From positions 1 through 11,293 of the forward strand of contig JAOZTS010000031.1 in assembly GCA_029939035.1 (NCBI GenBank): a stretch of DNA of 11,293 nt, in the 5' to 3' direction. The notes under the pieces are model-generated. The model was not told the origin of the DNA. It was given only the letters and a program-made list of their open reading frames with translations, and ran no database searches. This stretch comes from Candidatus Altimarinota bacterium. Its GTDB lineage: Bacteria; Patescibacteriota; Gracilibacteria; UBA1369; LOWO2-01-FULL-3. Both the position numbers and the translations under genes were made by a program. Numbering within the stretch: the first letter of the stretch is position 1; every line of letters starts with the position of its first letter. Positions 1 to 11,293 of the stretch are shown here, piece by piece.

Positions 1-150
1 GTGCATTCAAAACTGAAAGATATCATGGTCGACGCGTGGAATGATGTTAAGGAGAACGCAAAAAAATATGATTGTCCACTGAGAGTTGCGGCTTATATAA
101 CAGCTATTTCCAGGATTGAAGATAAAATTAAAGAAAGAGGAGGGTTTTAG
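1..150 (+). CDS. gdhA: Glutamate dehydrogenase (Glu/Leu/Phe/Val dehydrogenase family), C-terminal fragment
   Basis: This is the last 49 codons of a gene whose 5' part lies outside the window; the reading frame is open from base 1 and ends in TAG. The visible peptide has the layout of the C-terminal helix of Glu/Leu/Phe/Val dehydrogenases: an alternating helix with W13, then a tyrosine followed by the CPLRVAAYITAI segment (residues 25-36) and the ending RIEDKIKERGGF. The family usually has a 'D-(M/L)-R-x-A-A-Y-x-x-A-x-x-R' block here, and the match is clear despite the short length. The enzyme family interconverts glutamate and 2-oxoglutarate with NAD(P)H, linking ammonia to central carbon. 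The catalytic domain is not visible, so substrate and cofactor preference cannot be judged. The promoter of the downstream ppdK begins only 13 bases after the stop. The GTG at base 1 is not claimed as a start. Confidence 0.72.
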   Translation: MHSKLKDIMVDAWNDVKENAKKYDCPLRVAAYITAISRIEDKIKERGGF

Positions 151-162
151 GTAGACAACATC

Positions 163-191
163 TTGAATTTATCACAACAGTTCAATATACT
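163..191 (+). promoter_or_regulatory. Predicted sigma70-type promoter of ppdK
   Basis: TTGAAT at 163-168 and TATACT at 186-191 are separated by exactly 17 bases, a near-consensus vegetative promoter. Transcription would start near 198, leaving a leader of about 25 bases before the ATG at 223. The TTG of the -35 box is in frame with ppdK and could be mistaken for its start codon. Confidence 0.7.
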
Positions 192-222
192 GCCACCAAG
201 GGCATTTTTTAATCTAATTCCG

Positions 223-2889
223 ATGAAAATTCCAAGCTCATCAATCAACAAAGCGGAGAATACATCTGCGGGTGGCTTTTCTTCAAAAAAATATGTTTAC
301 TCTTTCGATGAAGGTAATAGAACTATGAAAGAATTACTCGGGGGAAAAGGGGCAAATTTGGCAGAAATGACAAAGATCGGTTTCCCGGTTCCTTTTGGTT
401 TTACAATAACTACAGAGATTTGTGATTACTATTCACAACACCAAGATTACCCAGAAGGTTTTGCTGAGCAATTAGAGGAAAAACTGAATTTTCTTGAAGT
501 AAAAACGACTAAGAAATTTGGTGATGTAAACAACCCTCTGCTGATATCTGTGCGGAGTGGAGCGGCTGTTTCGATGCCTGGAATGATGGATACGGTTTTG
601 AATCTTGGATTGAATGATAAAACAGTTGAAGGGTTGGCGCGAAGTTCGAAGAACGAGCGCCTAGCTTTTGATGCATATCGACGATTTATTCAGATGTTTG
701 GGGATGTGGTAATGGGAGTGAGTCATGAGCGTTTTGAGGAGGCAATTGAGAAAATGAAAACTGATAAAGGTGTTGAACATGATACTGATCTGACTGCTGA
801 AGACCTGAAACAATTGGTTCAGGAATACAAGAAAATTGTTTTGGACGATGCAGGAGAATCCTTTCCAGACAGCCCTTATGAGCAATTGAAATTGTCGATT
901 GAGGCGGTATTTAAATCTTGGGACAATGATAGAGCGAAGACTTATCGTCGAATAAATAATATTACCGGACTGAAAGGTACTGCAGTGACTGTGCAGGCGA
1001 TGGTATTTGGAAATATGGGTGAAGATAGTGGAACTGGAGTTGCGTTTACACGTGATCCAGCGAATGGTTCTCCTGAATTTTATGGAGAGTTTTTGATGAA
1101 TGCTCAGGGTGAAGATGTGGTTGCTGGGATTCGTACTCCCCTACCAATTTCTGAATTGGAAAAGGTTGATAAGAATTCATATCATGAACTTTTGGATCTG
1201 CGCGAAAAATTGGAAAAACATTACAAAGATATGCAGGATCTGGAATTTACTATAGAAAAAGGAGAATTGTATTTGCTCCAAACTCGAGATGGAAAGAGGA
1301 CTGCTCAAGCTGCGATGAAAATTGCTGCTGATATGGTGGAAGAGGGGCTTGTCACAAAAGAAGAAGCGTTGCTGAAAATTGATCCTAATCAATTGAACCA
1401 ACTACTGCATCCGCAACTAAAAGCGAGTGCTTCGAGAGATGTTATTGCTAAAGGTTTGCCGGCTTCGCCAGGTGCGGCTGTTGGAAAAGTGGTTTTCACG
1501 GCTGATGATGCGATGGAATGGTCGACTGAGAAGAACGAGAAGGTGATTTTGGTTCGAAAAGAGACTTCTCCTGAAGATATCCACGGAATGCATGTGGCTC
1601 AGGGTATTTTGACTGCTCGTGGAGGTATGACGAGTCATGCGGCTGTTGTGTGCAGAGGAATGGGAAAATGTTGTGTATCCGGTTGTAACGATGTGATGGT
1701 GAATGTGAGTGCGAAAAAAATGATTATTGGGGATTTGGTAATAAATGAAGGTGATTATATTACTCTCGATGGAAGCACTGGTGAGGTGATTATGGGAGAA
1801 ATGGATATGCAGAAACCTGATATGGTCAAAGATTTTGGGACTATTATGGAATGGGCTGATGAGTTTAGAAAATTGGATGTGAGGACAAATGCTGATACTC
1901 CTGAGGATTGTAAAGTTGCTATTGAGTTTGGGGCTGAGGGAATTGGACTCTGCCGAACTGAGCATATGTTCTTTGAAGAGGATAGAATTTATTTGGTAAG
2001 ACAAATGATCCTGGCAAAGGATGAGAAAGGGCGTGAAGCTCCATTAAAAAAGCTTAAAGAAATTCAAAAAGGAGATTTTGTTGGAATATTTGATGTAATG
2101 GGTGCTCGTCCTGTGACTGTTCGACTTTTGGATCCACCACTACACGAATTTTTGCCAGAAAGTGATGTGCATATAGAGGAGTTGGCAAAAGAATTGAAAG
2201 TTGATGTTACCGATTTGAAAGAAGTTATTTCAGCTCTTCACGAAGTAAATCCAATGCTTGGACATCGTGGATGTAGACTTGGAATTACTTATCCGGATAT
2301 TTACAAAATGCAGGTGCAAGCTATTACAGAGGCTGCTATCGAAGTTTCATCCAGAGGAGTTACTTCTAATGTAGAGATCGAAATTCCTTTAGTTGGAGAG
2401 GTTTCTGAGCTTAAGTATTTGCGAGAAGTTGTTCAATCTGTGATCGATGAATACAAAGGAAAGATTAATTTTGAATATAAAATTGGGACAATGATCGAGA
2501 TTCCAAGAGCTTGTTTGACTGCAAATGAAATCGCAGAACATGCAGATTTCTTCTCTTTTGGAACAAATGATCTTACTCAAATGACTTACGGATATTCACG
2601 TGATGATATGGCGAAATTCTTGCCGGTTTACTTGGACAAAGGCATTTTGGCTCGCGATCCTATGGCCGGAATCGATCAAAAGGGTGTCGGAAATCTGATG
2701 CAAGTCTGCGTTGGACTTGGTCGACAGGAAAAAACTGATTTGGAAATTGGAATTTGCGGAGAACAAGGTGGAGATCCTGAATCAGTCGAATTCTGCCACA
2801 AAATTGGTTTGAACTACGTGAGTTGTAGTCCATATCGAGTTCCAATCGCTAGATTGGCGGCGGCTCAGGCGGTTTTGAAGAGTAAATAA
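223..2889 (+). CDS. ppdK: Pyruvate, phosphate dikinase
   Basis: PPDK catalyses the reversible reaction pyruvate + ATP + Pi = PEP + AMP + PPi in the cytoplasm. In small genomes it often replaces or complements pyruvate kinase or supplies PEP. From the ATG at 223 the protein is 888 residues, close to the usual 870-900. In order: an N-terminal nucleotide-binding part beginning YVYSFDEG and LLGGKGANLAEM (about residues 24-50), with SVRSGAAVSMPGMMDT near 110-125; the swivelling phosphohistidine domain with GGMTSHAAVVCRG, whose histidine (about 472) is the phosphate carrier; and the C-terminal PEP/pyruvate TIM barrel with GLCRTEHMF, GTNDLTQMTYG, ICGEQGGDP (likely catalytic Cys about 845) and the end SCSPYRVPIARLAAAQA. 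All key blocks are intact. The frame is open from a TTG at 163, but that TTG is the -35 element and the added 20 residues are non-conserved. Residues 1-19 after the ATG are also non-conserved. No Shine-Dalgarno is seen. Confidence 0.96.
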   Translation: MKIPSSSINKAENTSAGGFSSKKYVYSFDEGNRTMKELLGGKGANLAEMTKIGFPVPFGFTITTEICDYYSQHQDYPEGFAEQLEEKLNFLEVKTTKKFGDVNNPLLISVRSGAAVSMPGMMDTVLNLGLNDKTVEGLARSSKNERLAFDAYRRFIQMFGDVVMGVSHERFEEAIEKMKTDKGVEHDTDLTAEDLKQLVQEYKKIVLDDAGESFPDSPYEQLKLSIEAVFKSWDNDRAKTYRRINNITGLKGTAVTVQAMVFGNMGEDSGTGVAFTRDPANGSPEFYGEFLMNAQGEDVVAGIRTPLPISELEKVDKNSYHELLDLREKLEKHYKDMQDLEFTIEKGELYLLQTRDGKRTAQAAMKIAADMVEEGLVTKEEALLKIDPNQLNQLLHPQLKASASRDVIAKGLPASPGAAVGKVVFTADDAMEWSTEKNEKVILVRKETSPEDIHGMHVAQGILTARGGMTSHAAVVCRGMGKCCVSGCNDVMVNVSAKKMIIGDLVINEGDYITLDGSTGEVIMGEMDMQKPDMVKDFGTIMEWADEFRKLDVRTNADTPEDCKVAIEFGAEGIGLCRTEHMFFEEDRIYLVRQMILAKDEKGREAPLKKLKEIQKGDFVGIFDVMGARPVTVRLLDPPLHEFLPESDVHIEELAKELKVDVTDLKEVISALHEVNPMLGHRGCRLGITYPDIYKMQVQAITEAAIEVSSRGVTSNVEIEIPLVGEVSELKYLREVVQSVIDEYKGKINFEYKIGTMIEIPRACLTANEIAEHADFFSFGTNDLTQMTYGYSRDDMAKFLPVYLDKGILARDPMAGIDQKGVGNLMQVCVGLGRQEKTDLEIGICGEQGGDPESVEFCHKIGLNYVSCSPYRVPIARLAAAQAVLKSK

Positions 2890-2912
2890 TGGGATGGTTA
2901 TTTTCTGATTGC

Positions 2913-2949
2913 TAAAATAGTAAAATTTTTTTACTTTTTTACTATTTTA
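2913..2949 (+). terminator. Predicted terminator downstream of ppdK (AT-rich hairpin)
   Basis: A perfect 13-bp inverted repeat, TAAAATAGTAAAA at 2913-2925 and its complement at 2937-2949, encloses an 11-base loop. An alternative nested hairpin, AGTAAAA (2919-2925) / TTTTACT (2929-2935), is followed directly by a T-run to 2940, which is the form expected of an intrinsic terminator on the plus strand. It lies 24 bases after the ppdK stop, between convergent genes. The stem is almost pure A/T, so it would be weak. Confidence 0.5.
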
Positions 2950-2956
2950 CGATTCG

Positions 2957-2976
2957 AAAAAAAAGGTCATGCACCT
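2957..2976 (-). terminator. Possible weak terminator of the glycosyltransferase-nadK unit
   Basis: On the minus strand a short hairpin, AGGT-GCATG-ACCT (2976 down to 2964), runs directly into eight T residues (2964-2957), about 20 bases past the nadK stop. The position and T-run fit an intrinsic terminator, but the stem is only 4 bp. Confidence 0.38.
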
Positions 2977-2995
2977 AATACTCCGTTTTCCGAAT

Positions 2996-3874
2996 TTAAT
3001 TTCCCCACTTCAATTTGCTACGAAGAACTTTGTAGTAGCGGTTTCCTGTGCGGACCATATAGATTTTTCTTTTACTGCGGCGGAATTTTATTTTGTCACC
3101 GTATTCGAGGATCATCATGTCTTGTCCGTCGAGGGTAAGTCCTATTAGAGCTGCTTCGTCTCGTCTTTGGGTTTCGATTGTGACTGTCATTTGTCGATTG
3201 TCCGGAAGGACGATTGGTCGCATTGAGAGGGAGCTTGGGCAGATTGGTGTGATAGTGAGGCTCTCGACTCTTGGGTGGACGATTGGTCCGCCTGCTGAGA
3301 GGGAGTGCGCTGATGAGCCTGTTGGTGTCGCTACAATGAGGCCGTCTGCTTTGAAATTTACGATTTTTCTATTGTCTACTTCGAGGTCTAGGGCGATGAG
3401 GCGAGCGAATGCTCCTTGGTTTATTACGGCGTCGTTTAGAGCCAAGAAAGTGTCTATTTTTTCTCCCTTTCTGTAAATGGTTATACGAAGGAGTGTTCTT
3501 TTGTCTACGCTGTATTGTCCTTTGAATACCTTGTCCAGGCACTCTATCATTTTGTCCGGTTTGCATTCTGTGAGAAACCCTAAGTTTCCTAGATTTATGC
3601 CTAATAGAAGCAGCTTTTTTCGAGGCATTCTTCGTGCTGTTTTTAGAATTGTTCCGTCTCCACCCATTACGATTACCAGATCTACTTTTTGTAAGAGTTT
3701 TTCTTTATTGTAGCCTTCTTCACCCTTGAAATGGATGCATGAATTCATATCAAACAGCACCTTCTTTTTTTTCTTTTTCAAGTAGGTGGCAAGTTTCTTT
3801 ATATCCTTTTTATAATGCTCGTTGTTCCGCTTCGTGACGATTCCTACTATTTTTATCTTTTTAGTGTTGTCCAT
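2996..3874 (-). CDS. nadK: NAD kinase
   Basis: This enzyme phosphorylates NAD+ to NADP+ with ATP (or polyphosphate in some members), the only route to NADP in most bacteria. At 292 residues it has normal family length. Visible blocks: the nucleotide-binding VIVMGGDGTILKTAR (68-81, GGDGT 71-75), INLGNLGFLTE (93-103), ALNDAVI (145-151), DGLIVATPTGSSAHSLSAGGP (178-197), ITPICPSSLSMRPIVLP (208-224) and LDGQ (248-251). Three positions are unusual: LND where LNE is commonest, GSSAH where GSTAY is usual, and CPSS where CPHS is usual. The fold and Gly-rich catalytic core are kept, so it is probably active, perhaps with altered substrate contacts. The N-terminal region is lysine-rich, including K34-K38, encoded by a long A-rich run. 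It is the second gene of a probable two-gene unit behind the glycosyltransferase (65-bp gap). GAAGGG lies about 13 bases before the ATG, too distant for a typical ribosome site. Confidence 0.93.
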   Translation of the reverse strand: MDNTKKIKIVGIVTKRNNEHYKKDIKKLATYLKKKKKKVLFDMNSCIHFKGEEGYNKEKLLQKVDLVIVMGGDGTILKTARRMPRKKLLLLGINLGNLGFLTECKPDKMIECLDKVFKGQYSVDKRTLLRITIYRKGEKIDTFLALNDAVINQGAFARLIALDLEVDNRKIVNFKADGLIVATPTGSSAHSLSAGGPIVHPRVESLTITPICPSSLSMRPIVLPDNRQMTVTIETQRRDEAALIGLTLDGQDMMILEYGDKIKFRRSKRKIYMVRTGNRYYKVLRSKLKWGN

Positions 3875-3886
3875 TTGGATAATGTT

Positions 3887-3933
3887 GCCCTTCGGGCGTT
3901 ATTTTGTAGGTGCGCGTTCGCTTCGCTGCCGCG
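3887..3933. repeat. GC-rich, REP-like spacer between the glycosyltransferase gene and nadK
   Basis: This stretch is strikingly GC-rich against AT-rich surroundings. It contains a small hairpin GCCC-TTC-GGGC (3887-3897) and a cluster of GCG/CGC words at 3912-3933 (minus strand GCGGCAGCGAAGCGAACGCG). It looks like a dispersed palindromic intergenic element, but only one copy is in the window, so its repetitive nature is inferred. It sits inside the probable message and could affect mRNA stability or partial termination before nadK. Confidence 0.35.
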
Positions 3934-3939
3934 TTTAGT

Positions 3940-5040
3940 TTACTTTAGGTCTTCAATTATTTCCAATAGTTTCTCAGCTGATCGCTCCCATGAGAATTTT
4001 TGTCCCTGGGCCAGGCCCTTATTTCTCAATGATTCTGAGAGTTCCTCGTCCACGATGAGTTTTTTCATTGATGCGGCAATTTCTTCAGGACTTTCCGGAT
4101 TTATCAATAATGCTGCGTCCCCCACCACTTCAGGAATTGACGATGTGTAGCTCGCAATTACCGGGCAACCGCTTTTCATTGCTTCCAGTGGTGGAATTCC
4201 GAATCCTTCGTAGAATGATGGAAATACTAATGCCTCCGCGAGGTTATAGAGGTTTCTGATTGCTGTGGTTGATAGGTACCCTAGTAGATGAACCTTTTTG
4301 CTGAGGTAATTTTGTTTAATGAGGTCGTGAATTTCCTGTTCTTCCCAACCTTTTCCTCCGACTATCATGAGTTGGTATTCTGGGTGTGTTTTGTGGAGGA
4401 GGGCTAGGGCTTTTATGAGGTTTGGGTAATTTTTCCGGGGAATTAATGTGCCGACTGCTACGAAAAAGTGCTTTGGGAGGTTTGTTTTTTGGATGAAGCC
4501 GGTAAGCTTTTCCTTTGCGACTGGTTTGTATGTTTTATCTGCGGCATTGTAGATTGTCGAGATTGGGTTTTTGTAGAATTTGAATTTTTCCTGGACGTCT
4601 TTCTTTGTATTATCTGAAACTGTTATGACGTGTGCTGTTTTTTTAAGTGCTTTTTTGATGAATAATCGTTCGATGATATTTGCCTTTCTGTTGTGGGTTC
4701 CTGGGAATAGGAATGCTACCAGATCATGGATCGCCAGAATGGTTTTTATCGATTTTGGAAGTAATGCTGGGATGATATAGCTACTGGGTGCGAAGAATAA
4801 ATCGACTGCTTCCTTTTTTGCGTCTTTTGCTACGTTTCGGTGCCAGAAAAAACTGCTTCCTTTGATTTGCCTGAGTTCTGCGTTTTTGAATTCCTCAAAT
4901 CCTGCGATTTTATTTTTTACATAGAGGATGTATTCGTTTTCCTGATCCAGTCTGAGAAGGCTCTGGGTAATATGAAAAGTAAACCACCCTTTTCCGGCCT
5001 TTTCTCCTCCTGCGGTTCGTATGTCTATTGCGATTTTCAT
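3940..5040 (-). CDS. Glycosyltransferase, family 4 (GT-B fold)
   Basis: This is a predicted nucleotide-sugar-dependent retaining glycosyltransferase, 366 residues, the standard length for GT4 enzymes of cell-surface polysaccharide or glycolipid synthesis. The N-terminal half is an acceptor-binding Rossmann-like domain, starting MKIAIDIRTAGGEKAGKG with LAIHDLVAFLFPG at 102-114 and a helix-rich stretch ending VITVSDNTKKD (138-148). The donor-binding half has VAVGTLIPRKNYPNLIKAL (194-212), MIVGGKGW (225-232), and the signature PSFYEGFGIPPLEAMKSGCP (274-293), in which E278 and E286 form the EX7E motif, followed by IPEVVGDAALL (302-312). No membrane segment is visible, so it is probably cytoplasmic or peripheral. 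The sugar and acceptor cannot be told from sequence. It is the first gene of a probable unit with nadK. The -10 box ends 6 bases before the ATG, predicting a leaderless mRNA and supporting this start. Confidence 0.92.
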   Translation of the reverse strand: MKIAIDIRTAGGEKAGKGWFTFHITQSLLRLDQENEYILYVKNKIAGFEEFKNAELRQIKGSSFFWHRNVAKDAKKEAVDLFFAPSSYIIPALLPKSIKTILAIHDLVAFLFPGTHNRKANIIERLFIKKALKKTAHVITVSDNTKKDVQEKFKFYKNPISTIYNAADKTYKPVAKEKLTGFIQKTNLPKHFFVAVGTLIPRKNYPNLIKALALLHKTHPEYQLMIVGGKGWEEQEIHDLIKQNYLSKKVHLLGYLSTTAIRNLYNLAEALVFPSFYEGFGIPPLEAMKSGCPVIASYTSSIPEVVGDAALLINPESPEEIAASMKKLIVDEELSESLRNKGLAQGQKFSWERSAEKLLEIIEDLK

Positions 5041-5046
5041 GGGGTG

Positions 5047-5055
5047 ATTATACCA
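5047..5055 (-). promoter_or_regulatory. Extended -10 promoter of the glycosyltransferase-nadK unit
   Basis: The minus strand reads TGG-TATAAT (5055 down to 5047), a consensus extended -10 element (TGnTATAAT). Only CACCCC separates it from the ATG at 5040, so the start of transcription should fall on or next to the A of the start codon, giving a leaderless message. No good -35 is present (TAATGT at about 5075-5070), which extended -10 promoters can tolerate. It lies back to back with the promoter for the membrane protein gene. Confidence 0.65.
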
Positions 5056-5066
5056 AATTTCGTCTC

Positions 5067-5094
5067 TTTACATTAGTCAGATTTGAGCTATGCT
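5067..5094 (+). promoter_or_regulatory. Predicted promoter of the membrane protein/zinc-ribbon pair
   Basis: TTTACA at 5067-5072 and TATGCT at 5089-5094 are 16 bases apart. Transcription would start near 5101. An ATG at 5090 falls inside the -10 box and cannot be the translation start if this promoter is used, which points to the ATG at 5123. The -35 overlaps the upstream region of the divergent glycosyltransferase promoter, so the two may compete. Confidence 0.5.
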
Positions 5095-5096
5095 TA

Positions 5097-5114
5097 GGTT
5101 AGTTAAATTTAACC
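5097..5114. promoter_or_regulatory. Palindrome at the predicted start of transcription
   Basis: GTTAAATTTAAC at 5102-5113 is a perfect 12-bp palindrome, flanked by GGTTA (5097-5101), which pairs with TAACC (5110-5114). It lies at about +1 to +13 of the predicted transcript. It could be an operator or a small leader hairpin. Its AT-rich composition makes a chance occurrence possible. Confidence 0.3.
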
Positions 5115-5122
5115 ACAATCTC

Positions 5123-5779
5123 ATGCCTAACTCGTTCAAAAATAGGCTTATGAAGTTACCCATAGTTAGCAAACTTGTGATCGTTGGATCTTTTGTTTCT
5201 ATCGTTGGAGTTTTTCTTCCTTGGTATAACGATGTTGATAAATATGGGATTGGAGGGATATTTTCGGGAATTTCTGGACCGCTTTATCTTGCTGGAACCA
5301 TTGTGCTTTTGTCAGGAATTGCTTCATTTTCGATGATTGCTTATAGAATTTTTGATAAGCCAATTCCTAAAATCCCTCTTAAAGAAAACCAATTTTATGC
5401 CTTTAGCAGTTCTGTTTCTTTGACAATGCTGGTTTTGAGCATTTCAGTATTCTTTCATAGTGGTTTTGGTGTGAGCTTAATTGATAAAAATCTTGGAATT
5501 GGGGTGTATCTTGGGCTTTTTGGCTCTGGTATCGTGATGCTTGCGGCAATAATGTCTATGAGAAATCGTAATGTTAGTTTTGAGGTTGAAGGAAGTTTGG
5601 AACCACTGATAGAGGTGAATGATGAGCATCGTGAGACTAAGCCGCTTGATTTGAGAACTGAAGATGTTGGTGAAGAAGCTATGAAAGTTAAATCGGCTGT
5701 TCAAGATTCAATAGAAGAATTTACCAGTCACGCTGAACGTGACTCTATCCAATCAGTAGATACTAAAGATATTCAATAA
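5123..5779 (+). CDS. Unrecognised four-helix membrane protein with acidic cytoplasmic tail
   Basis: I do not recognise this family. From the ATG at 5123 the protein is 218 residues. Four hydrophobic segments are visible, at about 15-34 (KLVIVGSFVSIVGVFLPW), 51-75 (GPLYLAGTIVLLSGIASF), 93-112 (SSSVSLTMLVLSISVFF) and 124-145 (LGIGVYLGLFGSGIVMLAAI). The first ends in LPWYND, followed by a glycine-rich loop with GIGGIFSGISG. 'LPW' after the first helix followed by a Gly-rich loop is a pattern I associate with small uncharacterised multi-pass proteins, but that gives no function. After the last helix a polar, acidic tail of about 70 residues follows. The stop overlaps the start of the zinc-ribbon gene (TAATG), so the two are probably translationally coupled. 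Alternative starts are 5090, inside the -10 box, and 5150, just before the first helix. Confidence 0.8.
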   Translation: MPNSFKNRLMKLPIVSKLVIVGSFVSIVGVFLPWYNDVDKYGIGGIFSGISGPLYLAGTIVLLSGIASFSMIAYRIFDKPIPKIPLKENQFYAFSSSVSLTMLVLSISVFFHSGFGVSLIDKNLGIGVYLGLFGSGIVMLAAIMSMRNRNVSFEVEGSLEPLIEVNDEHRETKPLDLRTEDVGEEAMKVKSAVQDSIEEFTSHAERDSIQSVDTKDIQ

Positions 5780-6045
5780 TGACTGAAGACAAAGCAAAAA
5801 AAGGTCCAGTTTTATTTTACTGCAAGGATTGTGAAGAGATCGTTGAGACTTATCAAGTTGGCAGAAAATATGTTTATAAATGCAGAAAATGTGGAACAAA
5901 AAATGTGGCTTTTGGAACTGAAAAAAGTTTAAATACGTTTTTTAGAATAGAGGAAAAAGAGAAGCAACTTGAAAGAAAGAAGGCGGAAAAAGAGGGCAAA
6001 AAAGTAGAGTTGAAAACGGTGAAAAAAAAGAGCGCAAAATCTTAG
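5779..6045 (+). CDS. Small zinc-ribbon protein with lysine-rich tail, function unknown
   Basis: This is an 88-residue protein with two CxxC knuckles, C15-x2-C18 (YCKDC) and C35-x2-C38 (KCRKCGTKN), 16 residues apart. That is a classic four-cysteine zinc ribbon, probably binding one Zn ion. The rest (about 56-88) is a highly charged Lys/Glu segment ending in a basic run (KTVKKKSAKS), consistent with nucleic-acid or ribosome contact, or with a disordered anchor. No enzyme signature is present. Its start codon overlaps the stop of the membrane protein gene by one base, suggesting reinitiation and a functional link; no Shine-Dalgarno is visible. It is too small and generic to name. It is the last gene before the recA promoter. 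Confidence 0.82.
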   Translation: MTEDKAKKGPVLFYCKDCEEIVETYQVGRKYVYKCRKCGTKNVAFGTEKSLNTFFRIEEKEKQLERKKAEKEGKKVELKTVKKKSAKS

Positions 6046-6061
6046 ATTTTTTTAAGTTTTT
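6036..6061 (+). terminator. Possible weak terminator after the zinc-ribbon gene
   Basis: AAAATCT (6037-6043) and AGATTTT (6044/6045-6051) form a short A/T stem around the TAG stop, followed by long T-runs to 6061. The T-tract is convincing but the stem is weak, so termination here is tentative. Confidence 0.28.
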
Positions 6062-6133
6062 TTAATAATTATTTAATGTCTGTATGCTAATGTGGCTTTG
6101 TCATAGGGATTTAGAGCTCATCGAATTTTACCA

Positions 6134-6163
6134 TTGACAGGTGAGGATGTCCTCACCTATACT
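6134..6163 (+). promoter_or_regulatory. Strong predicted promoter of recA-recX
   Basis: A perfect -35 consensus TTGACA (6134-6139) and a -10 TATACT (6158-6163) are separated by 18 bases. Transcription should begin near 6170, leaving about 24 bases before the recA ATG. The TTG of the -35 is in frame with recA and extends the open frame upstream by 20 codons, so it is a false start. Almost the whole spacer is an inverted repeat, described separately. Confidence 0.8.
6140..6157. promoter_or_regulatory. Operator-like inverted repeat between -35 and -10 of recA (candidate SOS box)
   Basis: GGTGAGGATGTCCTCACC consists of two perfect 8-bp arms (GGTGAGGA / TCCTCACC) around a central TG. It fills exactly the 18-bp spacer of the recA promoter. 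A dimeric repressor bound here would occlude RNA polymerase, the usual architecture of LexA control. It is not the enterobacterial CTGT-N8-ACAG box, the Bacillus GAAC-N4-GTTC box, or any other SOS box I recall. No second copy was noticed in the window. It lies upstream of the transcript, so it is not an RNA hairpin. Confidence 0.62.
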
Positions 6164-6193
6164 AGGATCACGTTAATTAATAACCTCATAAAT

Positions 6194-7255
6194 ATGAATG
6201 CGGACAATGAAAAAAGCAAAGCTATTGATTTAGCAATTTCTCAAATCGAAAAGAGTTTTGGGAAGGGTGCAATTATGAAATTGGGCAATGGAGCCAGAAA
6301 TCCTATTGAGACAATATCTACCGGATCATTATCACTAGATATTGCTTTAGGTGGTGGTGTGCCTCGTGGAAGAGTTGTAGAGATTTTTGGGCCAGAAAGT
6401 TCTGGTAAAACAACTTTGAGTCTTCATGTTTTGGCTGAAGCTCAAAAAGCTGGTGGAAGTGTAGCTTTTATAGATGCAGAGCATGCACTTGATCCTGAAT
6501 ATGCTAAGAAAATTGGTGTAAATACAGATGACTTGTTACTTTCTCAACCTGATAGTGGTGAGCAGGCTCTTGAGATTCTTGAGACACTGGTGCGAAGTAA
6601 CGCATTGGATGTAATTGTAGTGGATAGTGTAGCCGCTTTGACTCCGCGTGCTGAAATTGAAGGTGATATGGGTGATGCTCATATGGGTCTTCAGGCTAGA
6701 TTGATGAGTCAGGCACTGAGAAAACTCACTTCTATTGTTTCTAAGACTAAAACTACTGTTGTCTTCTTGAATCAGTTGAGAATGAAGATCGGAGTAATGT
6801 TTGGTAATCCTGAAACTACGACTGGTGGGCAGGCATTGAAATTTTACTCGTCAGTTCGAATGGATATTAGATGTATTGGTAAGATTGAGGGACTTGGAAC
6901 TGTTGAAAAAGAGCTGGTTGGAAATAGAGTGAAGGTTAAAATTGTTAAAAACAAGATTGCGCCTCCGTTCAAGATTGCTGAATTTGATATTATGTACAAT
7001 AAAGGAATTTCATTTGAAGGGGATCTTCTGGATTTGGCGACAAAGTATAATATTACGAGGAAGGCTGGTGCGTTTTATAGCTACAAGGAAAAGAAACTTG
7101 GGCAGGGTCGTGAAAATGTGAAGGCATTTATGATTGAGAACCAGAAGGTTTTGAAAGATATCGAAAAAGATGTGAAGGCGCTTGTGTTTGGTACTGCGGC
7201 TGAGAAGGCAAAAGTTGTGAAAGATTTGCCAGCAGAAGCTGAAGCTAAAGCTTAA
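6194..7255 (+). CDS. recA: Recombinase A
   Basis: RecA forms ATP-dependent filaments on single-stranded DNA, drives homologous strand exchange, and activates LexA-type self-cleavage where such a repressor exists. From the ATG at 6194 the protein is 353 residues, the same as E. coli RecA, and the Walker [10 protein letters not shown] falls at 66-74 as in E. coli, which strongly supports this start over the upstream in-frame TTG. Other hallmarks: the N-terminal helix [53 protein letters not shown] (Walker B and loop 1 region), [34 protein letters not shown] (loop 2 region) and [13 protein letters not shown]. The C-terminal domain is present and ends in an Ala/Glu/Lys tail. recX follows after 5 bases on the same message. 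The leader is short, without Shine-Dalgarno. Confidence 0.98.
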
Positions 7256-7260
7256 ATAAT

Positions 7261-7752
7261 ATGGAAACTGGAAACAAAGGTTATGACAAACTGTTGCAGT
7301 ATGGACTTAGGCTATTTACCAAGAAGAGGTATACAACTAGTGAGATACAGAAGAAGTTAACTGCTTATGCAAAGAAGAGGGAGGCGATTGAGGAAGAGTT
7401 TGTAGAGGGTGTGAGAGAGAGACTGGAAGAGTTGGGATATTTGGACGATAAGCAGTTTGTGGAGGATTATGTTTCTCACTGTGCACGGGTTAGGCCTAGG
7501 GGGCGAATGCTAATTGCACGGGAGCTGAAAATGAAGGGATTGCCAAAGGATTTGGTTGAGGAGGGGCTTGATAAAGTGGAAGTTGATGAAGGGGGGATGG
7601 CGTTTGAGATTCTAGAGAGGCGAGTTAAGAGGTGGGTAAAATATACTGAATATGAGCAGAAAACGAAGGCCTACAGATTTTTGTACTCGAAGGGGTTTGG
7701 CAGAGATGCTATTTACAAGGCAATAGGGCGGTGTTACAATCATGAACGATAA
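7261..7752 (+). CDS. recX: Regulatory protein RecX
   Basis: RecX binds the RecA filament groove and modulates, usually inhibits, its ATPase, recombinase and coprotease activities. The 163-residue protein shows the family's repeated three-helix pattern: YGLRLFTKKRYTTSEIQKKL (14-33) near the N-terminus, then the most diagnostic block, LEELGYLDDKQFVEDYV (55-71), followed by RPRGRMLIARELKMKGLPKDLVEEGL (78-103), and a third repeat ending in YRFLYSKGFGRDAIYKAI. Length and order match the family. It starts five bases after the recA stop with no visible ribosome site, so it is co-transcribed and probably translated by reinitiation or scanning. A terminator-like hairpin begins immediately after its stop. 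Codons are richer in AGG and GGG than in recA, possibly reflecting lower expression. Confidence 0.92.
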   Translation: METGNKGYDKLLQYGLRLFTKKRYTTSEIQKKLTAYAKKREAIEEEFVEGVRERLEELGYLDDKQFVEDYVSHCARVRPRGRMLIARELKMKGLPKDLVEEGLDKVEVDEGGMAFEILERRVKRWVKYTEYEQKTKAYRFLYSKGFGRDAIYKAIGRCYNHER

Positions 7753-7784
7753 GGTTCTTAATTTATTTAAGATCCTGTTTTTTT
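7753..7784 (+). terminator. Intrinsic terminator of recA-recX
   Basis: GGTTCTTAA (7753-7761) pairs with TTAAGATCC (7767-7775) across a 5-base loop with one T-T mismatch, and a run of seven T (7778-7784) follows. It begins directly after the recX stop. The end of the T-run is the first base of the nusA -10 box. Confidence 0.6.
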
Positions 7785-7789
7785 ATAAT
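7784..7789 (+). promoter_or_regulatory. Predicted -10 box of the nusA promoter
   Basis: TATAAT at 7784-7789 is a perfect -10. Transcription would start near 7796, only about 7 bases before the nusA ATG, giving an almost leaderless message. No clear -35 is seen because the expected place falls inside the recX terminator stem (about 7761-7766, ATTTAT). Confidence 0.5.
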
Positions 7790-7802
7790 TAATTTTATTA
7801 CT

Positions 7803-9047
7803 ATGCAATCACAATTTTTTGCAGCTATTAATCAACTCTGTGACGAAAAGAATATATCGAAAGAGATAGTTATCGAAACTATCGAATCAGCGTTGAGAGC
7901 TGCCTTTAGAAAAGACTATGGGAACAAGGAGCAAGAAATCGACGTAAACCTTGATGAAAATTCGGGTGTTACTACTGTGTATTTGGTTAAAGATGTTGTT
8001 AAGAAAGTGGAAGATGAAGACAGAGAAATCGATGAAAAGGATGCCAAGAAATATAACAAGAAGGCTAAAGTTGGCGACCAAGTAAAGATCGACGTTACTC
8101 CAACAAACTATGGAAGAATCGCTGCACAGGCTGCAAAGCAGGTGGTTATCCAAAAGATTCAGGATGCTGAGAGAGACGTGCTTTATGATACGTTCAAGAA
8201 TCGTGAAAACGAGCTAATTAATGCGATTGTCCATAGAGTGGATGGAACAAATGTTTATGTGAACTTGGATAATAAAACTACTACAAATATTCCTTATGAG
8301 CATCAAATCCCTGGAGAAAAATACTATTCTGGGCAAAGAATTAAGCTTTATTTGGATAAGGTTATTAAAACTACAAAAGGGCCACAACTTATTATTTCGA
8401 GGACTCATTCAGGTTTGGTAAGAAAGCTTTTGGAATTAGAAATTCCTGAGATTAAGTCAGGAATTGTGGAAATAAAATCGATTTCTCGTGATCCAGGAGT
8501 GAGATGTAAGGTTGCTGTGACCTCAAATGATGAAAAAATAGATCCGATTGGGTCTTGTGTAGGACAAAAAGGTATTCGTGTACAAAATATAATGGATGAG
8601 CTGAATGGTGAAAGAATTGATATCATTCAGTGGTCTGATGAGATGGAGGAATATATCAAAACCGCATTGGCTCCGGCGAAAACTACTGTTATAAAACTGG
8701 ATAAGAAGGTAAAGAGGGCGAAAGTATATGTACAGCCTGATCAGAGACCTCTTGCAATTGGAAAACAGGGGCAAAATGTTAGATTGGCTTCTATTTTGAC
8801 AGGTTGGGAAATTGATATTCTAGATATTAGTGATTTTGAAGGAAAACCTACAAAAGAAGCTAAGCCAGAGGTGGAGAATGTTGCTGATCTTGATTTGGAC
8901 AAAAAATTGATTAAAAGTCTCACTGATGCCAATTTAGCCTTGGTTGAACAACTTAAAGGACTTACAAAGAAGGATCTTGCTGAAATCGATGGAATTGATG
9001 AAGATGGAGCGAAGACTGTGTTTGATGCTTTGAAGAAGGTTGCATAG
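7803..9047 (+). CDS. nusA: Transcription termination/antitermination protein NusA
   Basis: NusA binds RNA polymerase and nascent RNA and controls pausing, intrinsic termination and antitermination. The 414-residue protein shows the expected order: an N-terminal polymerase-binding domain (1-~128) with AAFRKDYG (33-40) and the typical VGDQVKIDVTPTNYGRIAAQAAKQVVIQKI (90-119); an S1 domain (~135-200) ending GPQLIISRTHSGLV; KH1 (~210-285) with DPIGSCVGQKGIRVQNIMDEL (247-267); and KH2 (~290-345) with PLAIGKQGQNVRLASILTGW (316-335). A C-terminal helix-hairpin-helix-like part (~365-414, LKGLTKKDLAEIDGIDEDGA) resembles the acidic repeats of longer NusA proteins. It is usually found with rimP and infB; here it stands alone between recX and pilB with its own promoter. 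The leader is too short for a ribosome site. Confidence 0.96.
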   Translation: MQSQFFAAINQLCDEKNISKEIVIETIESALRAAFRKDYGNKEQEIDVNLDENSGVTTVYLVKDVVKKVEDEDREIDEKDAKKYNKKAKVGDQVKIDVTPTNYGRIAAQAAKQVVIQKIQDAERDVLYDTFKNRENELINAIVHRVDGTNVYVNLDNKTTTNIPYEHQIPGEKYYSGQRIKLYLDKVIKTTKGPQLIISRTHSGLVRKLLELEIPEIKSGIVEIKSISRDPGVRCKVAVTSNDEKIDPIGSCVGQKGIRVQNIMDELNGERIDIIQWSDEMEEYIKTALAPAKTTVIKLDKKVKRAKVYVQPDQRPLAIGKQGQNVRLASILTGWEIDILDISDFEGKPTKEAKPEVENVADLDLDKKLIKSLTDANLALVEQLKGLTKKDLAEIDGIDEDGAKTVFDALKKVA

Positions 9048-9064
9048 ATCCAGGTGTGCTGGAT
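9048..9064 (+). other. Hairpin directly after nusA
   Basis: ATCCAG (9048-9053) and CTGGAT (9059-9064) form a perfect 6-bp stem around the loop GTGTG, immediately after the TAG stop. No T-run follows, so a standard intrinsic terminator is not supported. It may be a transcript-end or processing hairpin. Confidence 0.4.
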
Positions 9065-9079
9065 TGAGTAGTACTTATA

Positions 9080-9109
9080 GTGGCTTTATGTGGCTATTTT
9101 TGCTATAAT
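9080..9109 (+). promoter_or_regulatory. Predicted extended -10 promoter of pilB, with tandem 10-bp repeat upstream
   Basis: TGC-TATAAT (9101-9109) is a consensus extended -10. No -35 consensus is present. Instead two imperfect 10-bp direct repeats, GTGGCTTTAT (9080-9089) and GTGGCTATTT (9090-9099), occupy the -35 region, one helical turn apart, as an activator site might be. Transcription would start near 9116. Confidence 0.58.
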
Positions 9110-9111
9110 AC

Positions 9112-9131
9112 TTAGATATTTTCATATCTAA
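9112..9131. promoter_or_regulatory. Palindrome overlapping the pilB transcription start
   Basis: TTAGATAT-TTTC-ATATCTAA is a perfect inverted repeat with 8-bp arms and a 4-base centre. It begins 2 bases after the -10 box and ends 4 bases before the pilB ATG. Because the predicted start (about 9116) lies within the left arm, a DNA operator is more likely than a complete RNA hairpin, though transcription from 9112 would allow one. Confidence 0.5.
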
Positions 9132-9135
9132 ACGT

Positions 9136-10860
9136 ATGGCAAATCAGGACCAAGATCCAGGTGAAGTAAAAGAAGTGCCGAAAGCACAGGCTTCTGTCGA
9201 AGGAGCGAGTGCTATTGAAAGCATTTCGACCACATCAGCTGTTTCTGAGGTAAATAGGGAATTTCAGGAGAAATCTACGCTGAAAAAAGCGGGAGATATG
9301 GGCTTACCTTATATCAATATCGCTAAAACCCCTTTGAATGCTGATTACTTGAGATTGATCGAGTTTGAGGAGGCACAGAAAGGGCGACTTATTCCATTCT
9401 TTAAAGTTGGAAAGAAAGTTCGTGTAGCTGTTGAGGACCCTGAAAAGCCTGAGACAAAGGAGGTCACCTCTTTGTTGGAGGGAAAAGGTTATGAAATTAG
9501 TATAAATCTTGCTTCGTCTGCAGGAATTGAAGATGCTTTAAAATTTTATAGATCTACTCAAAAATATAAGAAGATTGAGATAGTGGAGAGCGTTGATGAG
9601 GGGGCTATTGATACTTATGAAAAAGAGATCGCGCAATTGAAAGATGTACCTGCGAAGCTGGCTGAGGTTACTGCGGAGGAAGGATTAAATTTGCTGAATA
9701 TAGCTGCTTCTAAAACGCATACTTCTGATATTCACTACGAGCCTGGTGATGGTGAGGTAGTTGTGAGGTTTAGAATTGATGGAGTTTTGCATAAAGTTTT
9801 TGGATTGGAATCGAATGTTTATTCAAAAATTGCTGAGCAGATCAAATATCAGTCAAAAATGAAATTGAATGTGAATACTATTCCGCAAGATGGAAGGTAT
9901 GTTTTCACTTTTAATGAAAATAAAGTTGCAGTTCGTGTGTCCTCTATCCCTACACCTTTTGGTGAATCGTTTGTGTGTAGATATCTTCCTTCTGGACGAA
10001 AAGCTATGACTTTTGAAGAGCTTGGATTCCATGGGATTGCACTGAAAAAGCTTGAAAAGGCTGCGAAGATTTCGCAGGGGATGATTCTAGTAACTGGGCC
10101 TACTGGAAGTGGTAAATCGACTACTCTATACTCACTTTTGGGAATTATGAATACTCCTGAAAACAAAGTTATTACTTTAGAAGATCCGGTTGAGTATTAT
10201 ATGAAAGGCGTTACTCAAAGTCAGATTGATGAAAGTCGTGATTATACTTTTGTGACTGGTCTTCGATCTATTTTGAGACAAGATCCTGATGTTGTGATGC
10301 TTGGTGAGATCCGTGATATTGAAACTGCTGAAACTGCTGCACAGGCTGCTCTGACTGGACATGTTTTACTGAGTACTCTTCATACAAATAGTGCAATTGA
10401 AGCTATTCCTAGACTTGTGAATATGGGCTTGCCTGCATTTATGGTGGCGCCTGCATTAAATACGATTGTTGCGCAGAGATTGGTGCGAAAAGTTTGTCCG
10501 CATTGTGTAAAGACCGAGGCAATTAGTGAAAGTGAAAAGAAAGAATTCAAGGAAGTCATTGAAAATTTAAAGAAAGTTAATCCTGGAACTGAGGTAGAAG
10601 TTCCAACTGAAGTGGCAAAAACTGCTGGATGTGATTCGTGTAGCAGCACGGGTTATCTTGGGCGACTTGTTATCAGTGAAGTTCTTACAATTACTTCAGA
10701 GTTGAAACAATTAATCCTCAATAATGCGAGCTCTGTAGACTTGATTGCTGCAGCTCGAAAAGAAGGAATCATTACGATGCGAGAAGATGGTTTTATAAAG
10801 GCTGCTCAGGGTTTGACGACTCTTGAGGAAGTGCATCGGGTAACGAATGTCGCAAGGTAA
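9136..10860 (+). CDS. pilB: Type IV pilus assembly / type II secretion ATPase (GspE/PilB family)
   Basis: This is the cytoplasmic hexameric ATPase that powers extension of type IV pili. The 574-residue protein has a polar, low-complexity N-terminus (1-~50), an MshEN-like domain (~55-150; LPYINIAKTPLN, LIPFFKVGKKVRVAVEDP), and a PAS-like N2 domain (~180-290; SDIHYEPGDGEVVVRFRIDGVLHK, DGRYVF). The motor follows: Walker A GPTGSGKST (321-329), Asp box ITLEDPVEY (346-354), Walker B DPDVVMLGEIRD (383-394) and His box GHVLLSTLHTN (408-418). C454-P-H-C457 and C499-x2-C502 form the tetracysteine zinc site typical of GspE/PilB and absent from PilT. PilB is preferred over GspE because Gram-negative type II secretion is unlikely in this lineage. 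No other pilus genes are adjacent. The 3' end overlaps the opposing transporter gene by 68 bp. There is no Shine-Dalgarno. Confidence 0.94.
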   Translation: MANQDQDPGEVKEVPKAQASVEGASAIESISTTSAVSEVNREFQEKSTLKKAGDMGLPYINIAKTPLNADYLRLIEFEEAQKGRLIPFFKVGKKVRVAVEDPEKPETKEVTSLLEGKGYEISINLASSAGIEDALKFYRSTQKYKKIEIVESVDEGAIDTYEKEIAQLKDVPAKLAEVTAEEGLNLLNIAASKTHTSDIHYEPGDGEVVVRFRIDGVLHKVFGLESNVYSKIAEQIKYQSKMKLNVNTIPQDGRYVFTFNENKVAVRVSSIPTPFGESFVCRYLPSGRKAMTFEELGFHGIALKKLEKAAKISQGMILVTGPTGSGKSTTLYSLLGIMNTPENKVITLEDPVEYYMKGVTQSQIDESRDYTFVTGLRSILRQDPDVVMLGEIRDIETAETAAQAALTGHVLLSTLHTNSAIEAIPRLVNMGLPAFMVAPALNTIVAQRLVRKVCPHCVKTEAISESEKKEFKEVIENLKKVNPGTEVEVPTEVAKTAGCDSCSSTGYLGRLVISEVLTITSELKQLILNNASSVDLIAAARKEGIITMREDGFIKAAQGLTTLEEVHRVTNVAR

Positions 10861-11293
10861 CCCATGAAACGGCACTTGCGATAATCATAAGTATTCCAAA
10901 AATAAGGAATAGGTAGTTGAAGGGTAGTAACAATAATGTGACTGCTCCTATTGCAGGTGTGATGAAAAGAGCTATTGGATCTGCTGTCATGTACACTCCA
11001 TATAGTTTGTCTTCATCCTTTTTTTTCATGTTTTTGAATAAAAAGTATTCCTGTAGTGGTTCTACGAAAGCCATTCCGAGGTGGGCTACAATTAATATTC
11101 CAAAATTTAGGAGTGTGTATGGGCTAAAGAATATCACGAGCAAGCTGATCGCCATTATTACAAATCCAGTTGCGATTGGTTTTTGGACTCCGTGTTTGTC
11201 TGCGTACTCCCCTGTTTTCACTGCGAGCAGAATTAATTGCAAAATCGTAAGGTCGAGAAGGATTACTAACACGCTTTCGATCTATCCAGAGAA
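10793..11293 (-). pseudogene. MFS-type transporter, C-terminal part, interrupted by an in-frame TAG and cut by the window edge
   Basis: A 159-codon frame (first possible start GTG at 11272) encodes about five membrane helices: ILLDLTILQLILLAV, IATGFVIMAISLLVIFF, LNFGILIVAHLGMAFV, IALFITPAIGAVTLLLLPF and YLFLIFGILMIIASAVSW. GEYADKHGVQKPIATG after the first helix resembles the conserved loop 8-9 of the major facilitator superfamily (G-x3-D-x-x-G), so this looks like helices 8-12 of a twelve-helix transporter; the substrate is unknown. Upstream in the same frame the sequence reads IES after TAG (11284-11282), so the first half is either beyond the edge and separated by a nonsense mutation, or the last bases contain a sequencing error. 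An independent five-helix protein starting at GTG is less likely. The C-terminal tail (SLPDALPQESSNPEQPL) lies antisense to pilB. Confidence 0.6.

Follow-up and report, generated by a model that had tools for sequence, protein, structure and literature searches.

A palindrome in the recA promoter spacer as a predicted, order-specific LexA operator in Peregrinibacteria

Background

A recA promoter whose spacer is filled by an inverted repeat raises the question of which repressor, if any, acts on it. Such a promoter lies in an 11,293 nt stretch of DNA from Candidatus Altimarinota bacterium (assembly GCA_029939035.1, contig JAOZTS010000031.1, positions 1 to 11,293 of the forward strand), analysed here as a whole and called the window. 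For LexA generally it is established that a repressor bound in the spacer blocks RNA polymerase, that RecA triggers LexA self-cleavage, and that the repressed genes are thereby induced; RecA is the co-protease in the known systems. An initial annotation, made from the letters of the window alone, described the palindrome between TTGACA and TATACT and proposed a damage-response repressor particular to the lineage. The palindrome is very probably the operator of a classic LexA/SOS circuit with an operator specific to this order of Peregrinibacteria, in which binding, cleavage and induction are predicted from sequence comparison. Such a circuit would be a concrete and testable damage response for little-studied, largely uncultured bacteria.

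The recA promoter region

The features of the region, all on the forward strand, are as follows.

6051..6093, + strand: possible second recA promoter, with TTTAA at 6051, 6061 and 6072 and TGCTAATGT at 6085-6093
6134..6139, + strand: -35 element TTGACA of the recA promoter, read directly
6140..6157, + strand: predicted LexA operator (SOS box) GGTGAGGATGTCCTCACC, consensus GGTGAG-N6-CTCACC, assigned from sequence and conservation
6158..6163, + strand: -10 element TATACT of the recA promoter, read directly; in relatives too, TATACT or a variant of it comes after the box
6194..7255, + strand: recA (PF00154, 5e-135), with its ATG at 6194
7261..7752, + strand: recX (PF02631 and PF21981), starting 5 bases after recA

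Positions 6140-6157 read GGTGAGGA-TG-TCCTCACC and fill the spacer between TTGACA and TATACT, exactly in the sequence and at the coordinates first described; A6139 and T6158 lengthen the arms of the palindrome to 9 bp. With up to three mismatches allowed, GGTGAGGA-N2-TCCTCACC matches the window once against 0.01 matches expected in shuffles of the window, in agreement with the earlier judgement that a palindrome here is unlikely by chance. Conservation is confined to GGTGAG-N6-CTCACC; the GA-TG-TC inside it, which gives the window copy its 8-bp palindrome, varies. The full GGTGAGGA-N2-TCCTCACC was tried as a search motif at three mismatches and rejected, as it added weak sites, one of them within a coding frame (L004).

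From its spacing, recX is probably in one operon with recA. Other genes of the window encode a PEP-utilising enzyme, NAD kinase, a glycosyltransferase, NusA, a type II/IV secretion ATPase and an MFS protein. The genome is probably that of a Peregrinibacteria-like member of the Patescibacteria, and the nearest named RecA, at 83% identity, is that of 'Candidatus Peregrinibacteria bacterium CSMAG_205'. Before recA, positions 5779-6045 encode a small, zinc-ribbon-like cysteine-pair protein that has no match in Pfam, and by eye a similar coding sequence also precedes recA in several relatives.

LexA and further copies of the predicted operator in the genome

The genome encodes a full LexA, with the DNA-binding domain PF01726 and the S24 peptidase domain PF00717, that passes the TIGR00498 equivalog at 181 bits against a cut-off of 111; a repressor of the LexA/S24 type, whose absence would have counted against the initial annotation, is thus present. 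The Ala-Gly cleavage site, Ser and Lys of this LexA align with those of solved LexA proteins, the catalytic residues of LexA being well established. Its recognition helix reads SDNSILK where the best-matching solved LexA (7ocj, which we take to be that of E. coli) has SPNAAEE. The earlier interpretation is supported, with the correction that the repressor belongs among the LexA orthologues, set apart by the recognition helix, and is no new kind of repressor.

Perfect GGTGAG-N6-CTCACC sites number three in this genome, upstream of recA, lexA and an HNH-like gene, and the reversed-control motif has none. Further copies had been anticipated, and two of them precede lexA, where a second copy, with one mismatch, lies 27 bp from the perfect box. 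On the same strand, about 0.3 kb after lexA, is a dinB-type gene (PF00817); the interval between the two genes in this genome holds no box at up to two mismatches. A promoter-framed search for weak sites in the same genome returned the lexA site as its sole match; since the recA promoter has one extra base, the pattern used cannot match recA.

Conservation and distribution

Loci for the comparison of recA and lexA were picked by protein similarity and not by the box. The box lies between TTGAC and a TATACT-like -10 element in all 30 recA loci (the window and 29 relatives), perfect in 29 and with one mismatch in the other, so the repeat is kept in relatives, one of the points on which the initial annotation had staked its reading. 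Among the 30 lexA loci, 29 have upstream DNA, and 28 of these 29 carry a box (up to two mismatches) right after TTGAC; a second box follows 21-28 bp on in 27 of the 28. The exception, in genome G013, has degenerate boxes. Extending the set to 56 recA genes, some of them picked for their boxes, gives 46 perfect boxes, two with one mismatch, one degenerate (G035), one cut by a contig end (G055) and six in the family f15 treated below.

Across 60 genomes (this one and 59 relatives) perfect GGTGAG-N6-CTCACC occurs at 211 sites against one site for the reversed control, and 54 of the genomes have at least one perfect box. The remaining six can be grouped into three kinds: G048, G055, G043 and G054, whose boxes at lexA or recA have one mismatch or have drifted; G013, with one mismatch at recA and the degenerate lexA box; and G035, degenerate at both genes. 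In a sample of 379 genomes from the phylum, 16 of the 17 genomes of the order carry a perfect box. Beyond the order its frequency does not exceed that of the reversed control, with 15 of 362 genomes against 19 of 362. TTGAC adjoins none of 11 inspected out-of-order sites on either strand, and no box within two mismatches is present in the stretches inspected at recA in 16 loci from other Patescibacteria, one of these loci having just 56 bases of upstream sequence.

Genes following the box

Downstream genes were read for 178 of the 211 perfect sites; of the other 33, 23 belong to five genomes that are same-genus relatives of others in the set (G022, G023, G025, G026 and G028) and 10 lay beyond the rows listed. 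The boxes are followed by recA (42; 38 called by script and four by eye), lexA (30), HNH-like genes (27), Bro-N genes (15), radA (13), dinD-like genes (6), other genes (32) or no called gene (13); since a perfect box was the criterion for every one of the 178 sites, these counts do not represent an unbiased regulon. One representative per class was scanned, giving RadA (TIGR00416), DinD (NF008573), Bro-N, IMS polymerase, RmuC, SRAP, KilA-N, DUF763 and Dam. The boxed DNA-damage genes are recA and lexA in this genome and radA, dinD-like, IMS polymerase, SRAP and rmuC genes in relatives. GGTGAG-N6-CTCACC could serve as a searchable motif for SOS genes of the order, with the HNH-like, Bro-N and DUF763 genes as candidate new members.

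TTGAC stands directly, or one base off, before 124 of the 178 boxes. The frame is present at all script-called recA, all lexA and all radA boxes (38, 30 and 13), and TTGAC also adjoins every Bro-N and dinD-like box. The SRAP box is without TTGAC. Grouped in one cluster, the genes at L331, L366 and L370, of which one was scanned as DUF763, likewise have a box without TTGAC in three genomes.

None of the 27 HNH-like boxes has the TTGAC frame, the box standing outside a clear -35/-10 pair. These genes are found at one locus of genome G000 (L258, contig C30) and at another 26 loci spread over 14 genomes, some of which have several. The label 'HNH-like' is a reading of a C..C/HH motif in the protein, to which no Pfam or NCBIfam family was assigned. 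In 9 of 18 within-genome pairs of HNH-like sites the homologous stretch begins 0-9 bases before the box, and the boxed HNH-like genes may be mobile and SOS-linked.

LexA helix and predicted operator altered together in one family

The family f15, comprising six genera, departs from the rest of the order in both protein and operator. Its LexA has SDGF[IV][VI]HC in six of six cases, against SDN[SG]..K in 37 other LexA rows (one genome entering twice), and among the altered positions are presumably some through which E. coli LexA contacts DNA. All six f15 lexA promoters read TTGAC[TC][AG]TGAG, and three of the six boxes have a poor 3' half. The f15 recA promoters all have T[AG]TGAG boxes, five in the form T[AG]TGAG-N6-CTCA[CT]A after TTGAC and the sixth as TGTGAGTGTGCATTCATA after TTGCA. 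The core TGAG is kept in these boxes while the outer bases are altered on both sides.

Genome-wide and at one mismatch, the drifted f15 pattern shows no excess, with 10 and 8 sites where its control has 12 and 6, and the three perfect f15 sites away from lexA and recA (L405, L406 and L411) lack a TTGAC/TTGA frame; the case for f15 therefore rests on its lexA and recA promoters. Single TGTGAG or AGTGAG half-sites also accompany the ordinary helix, chiefly in the second box of lexA, so that what sets f15 apart is the two-sided change alone. As judged from these sequences, the recognition helix of LexA and its operator have changed together in f15, which ties the box to LexA. The family offers a natural experiment for the protein-DNA code of LexA, with a related repressor, a changed helix and a changed operator.

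Predicted mechanism and alternative explanations

A LexA dimer, encoded elsewhere in the genome, would bind GGTGAG-N6-CTCACC, cover the promoter spacer and block RNA polymerase. Upon DNA damage, RecA filaments on single-stranded DNA would cause LexA to cut itself at Ala-Gly and leave the operator, and its release would switch on recA, probably with recX, and lexA, perhaps also the dinB-type gene downstream of lexA. Autorepression of lexA would then reset the circuit.

It is very improbable that some repressor other than LexA owns the box and also controls lexA and recA. Bro-N and KilA-N genes after some boxes, and further, weaker LexA-like matches encoded in some relatives, speak for such a repressor; against it, 28 of 29 lexA loci have boxes, mostly tandem, upstream of lexA itself, and the paired shift of helix and box in f15 points to LexA within its limits, namely the three poor 3' halves and the single drifted half-sites elsewhere. 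Less probable still is an RNA hairpin, acting in the transcript as attenuator or terminator. The perfect 9-bp arms of the window copy would suit one, but the repeat lies between -35 and -10 and so would not be transcribed from the recA promoter, and only GGTGAG/CTCACC is kept while the six inner bases vary (the 178 sites being box-selected, the 30 recA loci not).

Just as unlikely as the hairpin is that the site is targeted by, or forms the end of, a mobile family of HNH-like genes spread through the order. That 27 of 178 sites precede HNH-like genes, and that half of the within-genome pairs become homologous at or just before the box, is in keeping with such an origin; against it stand the fixed promoter geometry of the recA, lexA and radA sites and the fact that the boxes of these three genes precede no HNH-like gene. 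A chance palindrome has a negligible probability in view of the excess over the reversed control (211 sites to one in the 60 genomes) and the box in every one of the 30 recA promoters. The LexA operator is accordingly retained as the reading of the palindrome in the comparisons below.

Comparison with known LexA boxes

The LexA box of the Gram-positive type is GAAC-N4-GTTC. Both it and the box described here have G at position 6 and A at position 5 from the dyad; at position 4 the present box has G, not A, and its position 3 is unconstrained in the order, so that GAAC is absent. In another lineage of Patescibacteria (Patescibacteria group bacterium Modern_marine.mb.280, L110), GTGAAC-N4-GTTCAC occupies the recA spacer position and resembles this Gram-positive box. 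The E. coli box is given as CTGT-N8-ACAG and that of Geobacter sulfurreducens as GGTT-N10-AACC in PMC8565304. Like the former, the present box is a palindrome that lies in SOS promoters and is predicted to serve a LexA of the S24/wHTH type; when the two are aligned on their centres, T at position 7 and G at position 6 from the dyad coincide. The half-site is CTGT there and GGTGAG here. The latter, from a distant lineage, is likewise an 18-bp palindrome with outer GGT/ACC in register, but is without the inner GAG/CTC. The predicted recognition word is different from all three LexA words compared. The earlier statement that the half-site does not match the SOS boxes of several other groups stands with regard to CTGT and GAAC, with the reservation that some positions coincide.

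A 2017 study by Sanchez-Osuna, Barbe and Erill (Environ Microbiol 19:3465) reportedly deals with the SOS network of Patescibacteria, the same phylum and regulator, and may contain GGTGAG-N6-CTCACC. PMC8565304 counts 17 distinct LexA motifs and cites the 2017 study among the sources of these motifs, and PMC7739468 (2020) cites that study among cases of LexA recognising direct repeats. The direct-repeat cases, as cited there, would differ from the palindrome found here. Among the matches listed for LexA in Patescibacteria and related candidate phyla there is no report of GGTGAG-N6-CTCACC, the full 2017 study lying outside that scope, and the chances that the motif is already in print are about even. 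Three elements together could be new, a proposal held tentatively and at slightly under an even chance: an undescribed LexA word, GGTGAG-N6-CTCACC, across an order of Patescibacteria; the f15 switch of about five helix residues together with the two outermost bases on either side of the operator; and a second mode, in which LexA would act outside a -35/-10 frame upstream of multi-copy HNH-like genes.

A candidate second recA promoter

In the window and in relatives, TTTAA repeats 10-11 bp apart, followed by TGCTAATGT, are found upstream of the predicted LexA-controlled recA promoter. The repeats and TGCTAATGT together are a candidate for a second recA promoter, the repeats bearing what we take to be an OmpR/PhoB-like resemblance. 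The 178 regions (660 kb) contain 10 exact period-11 TTTA[AG] triplets, against two each for periods 9 and 10 and none for periods 8 and 12-15 in the same regions. Eight of the 10 period-11 triplets, from seven genomes, sit 60-95 bp before boxed recA promoters.
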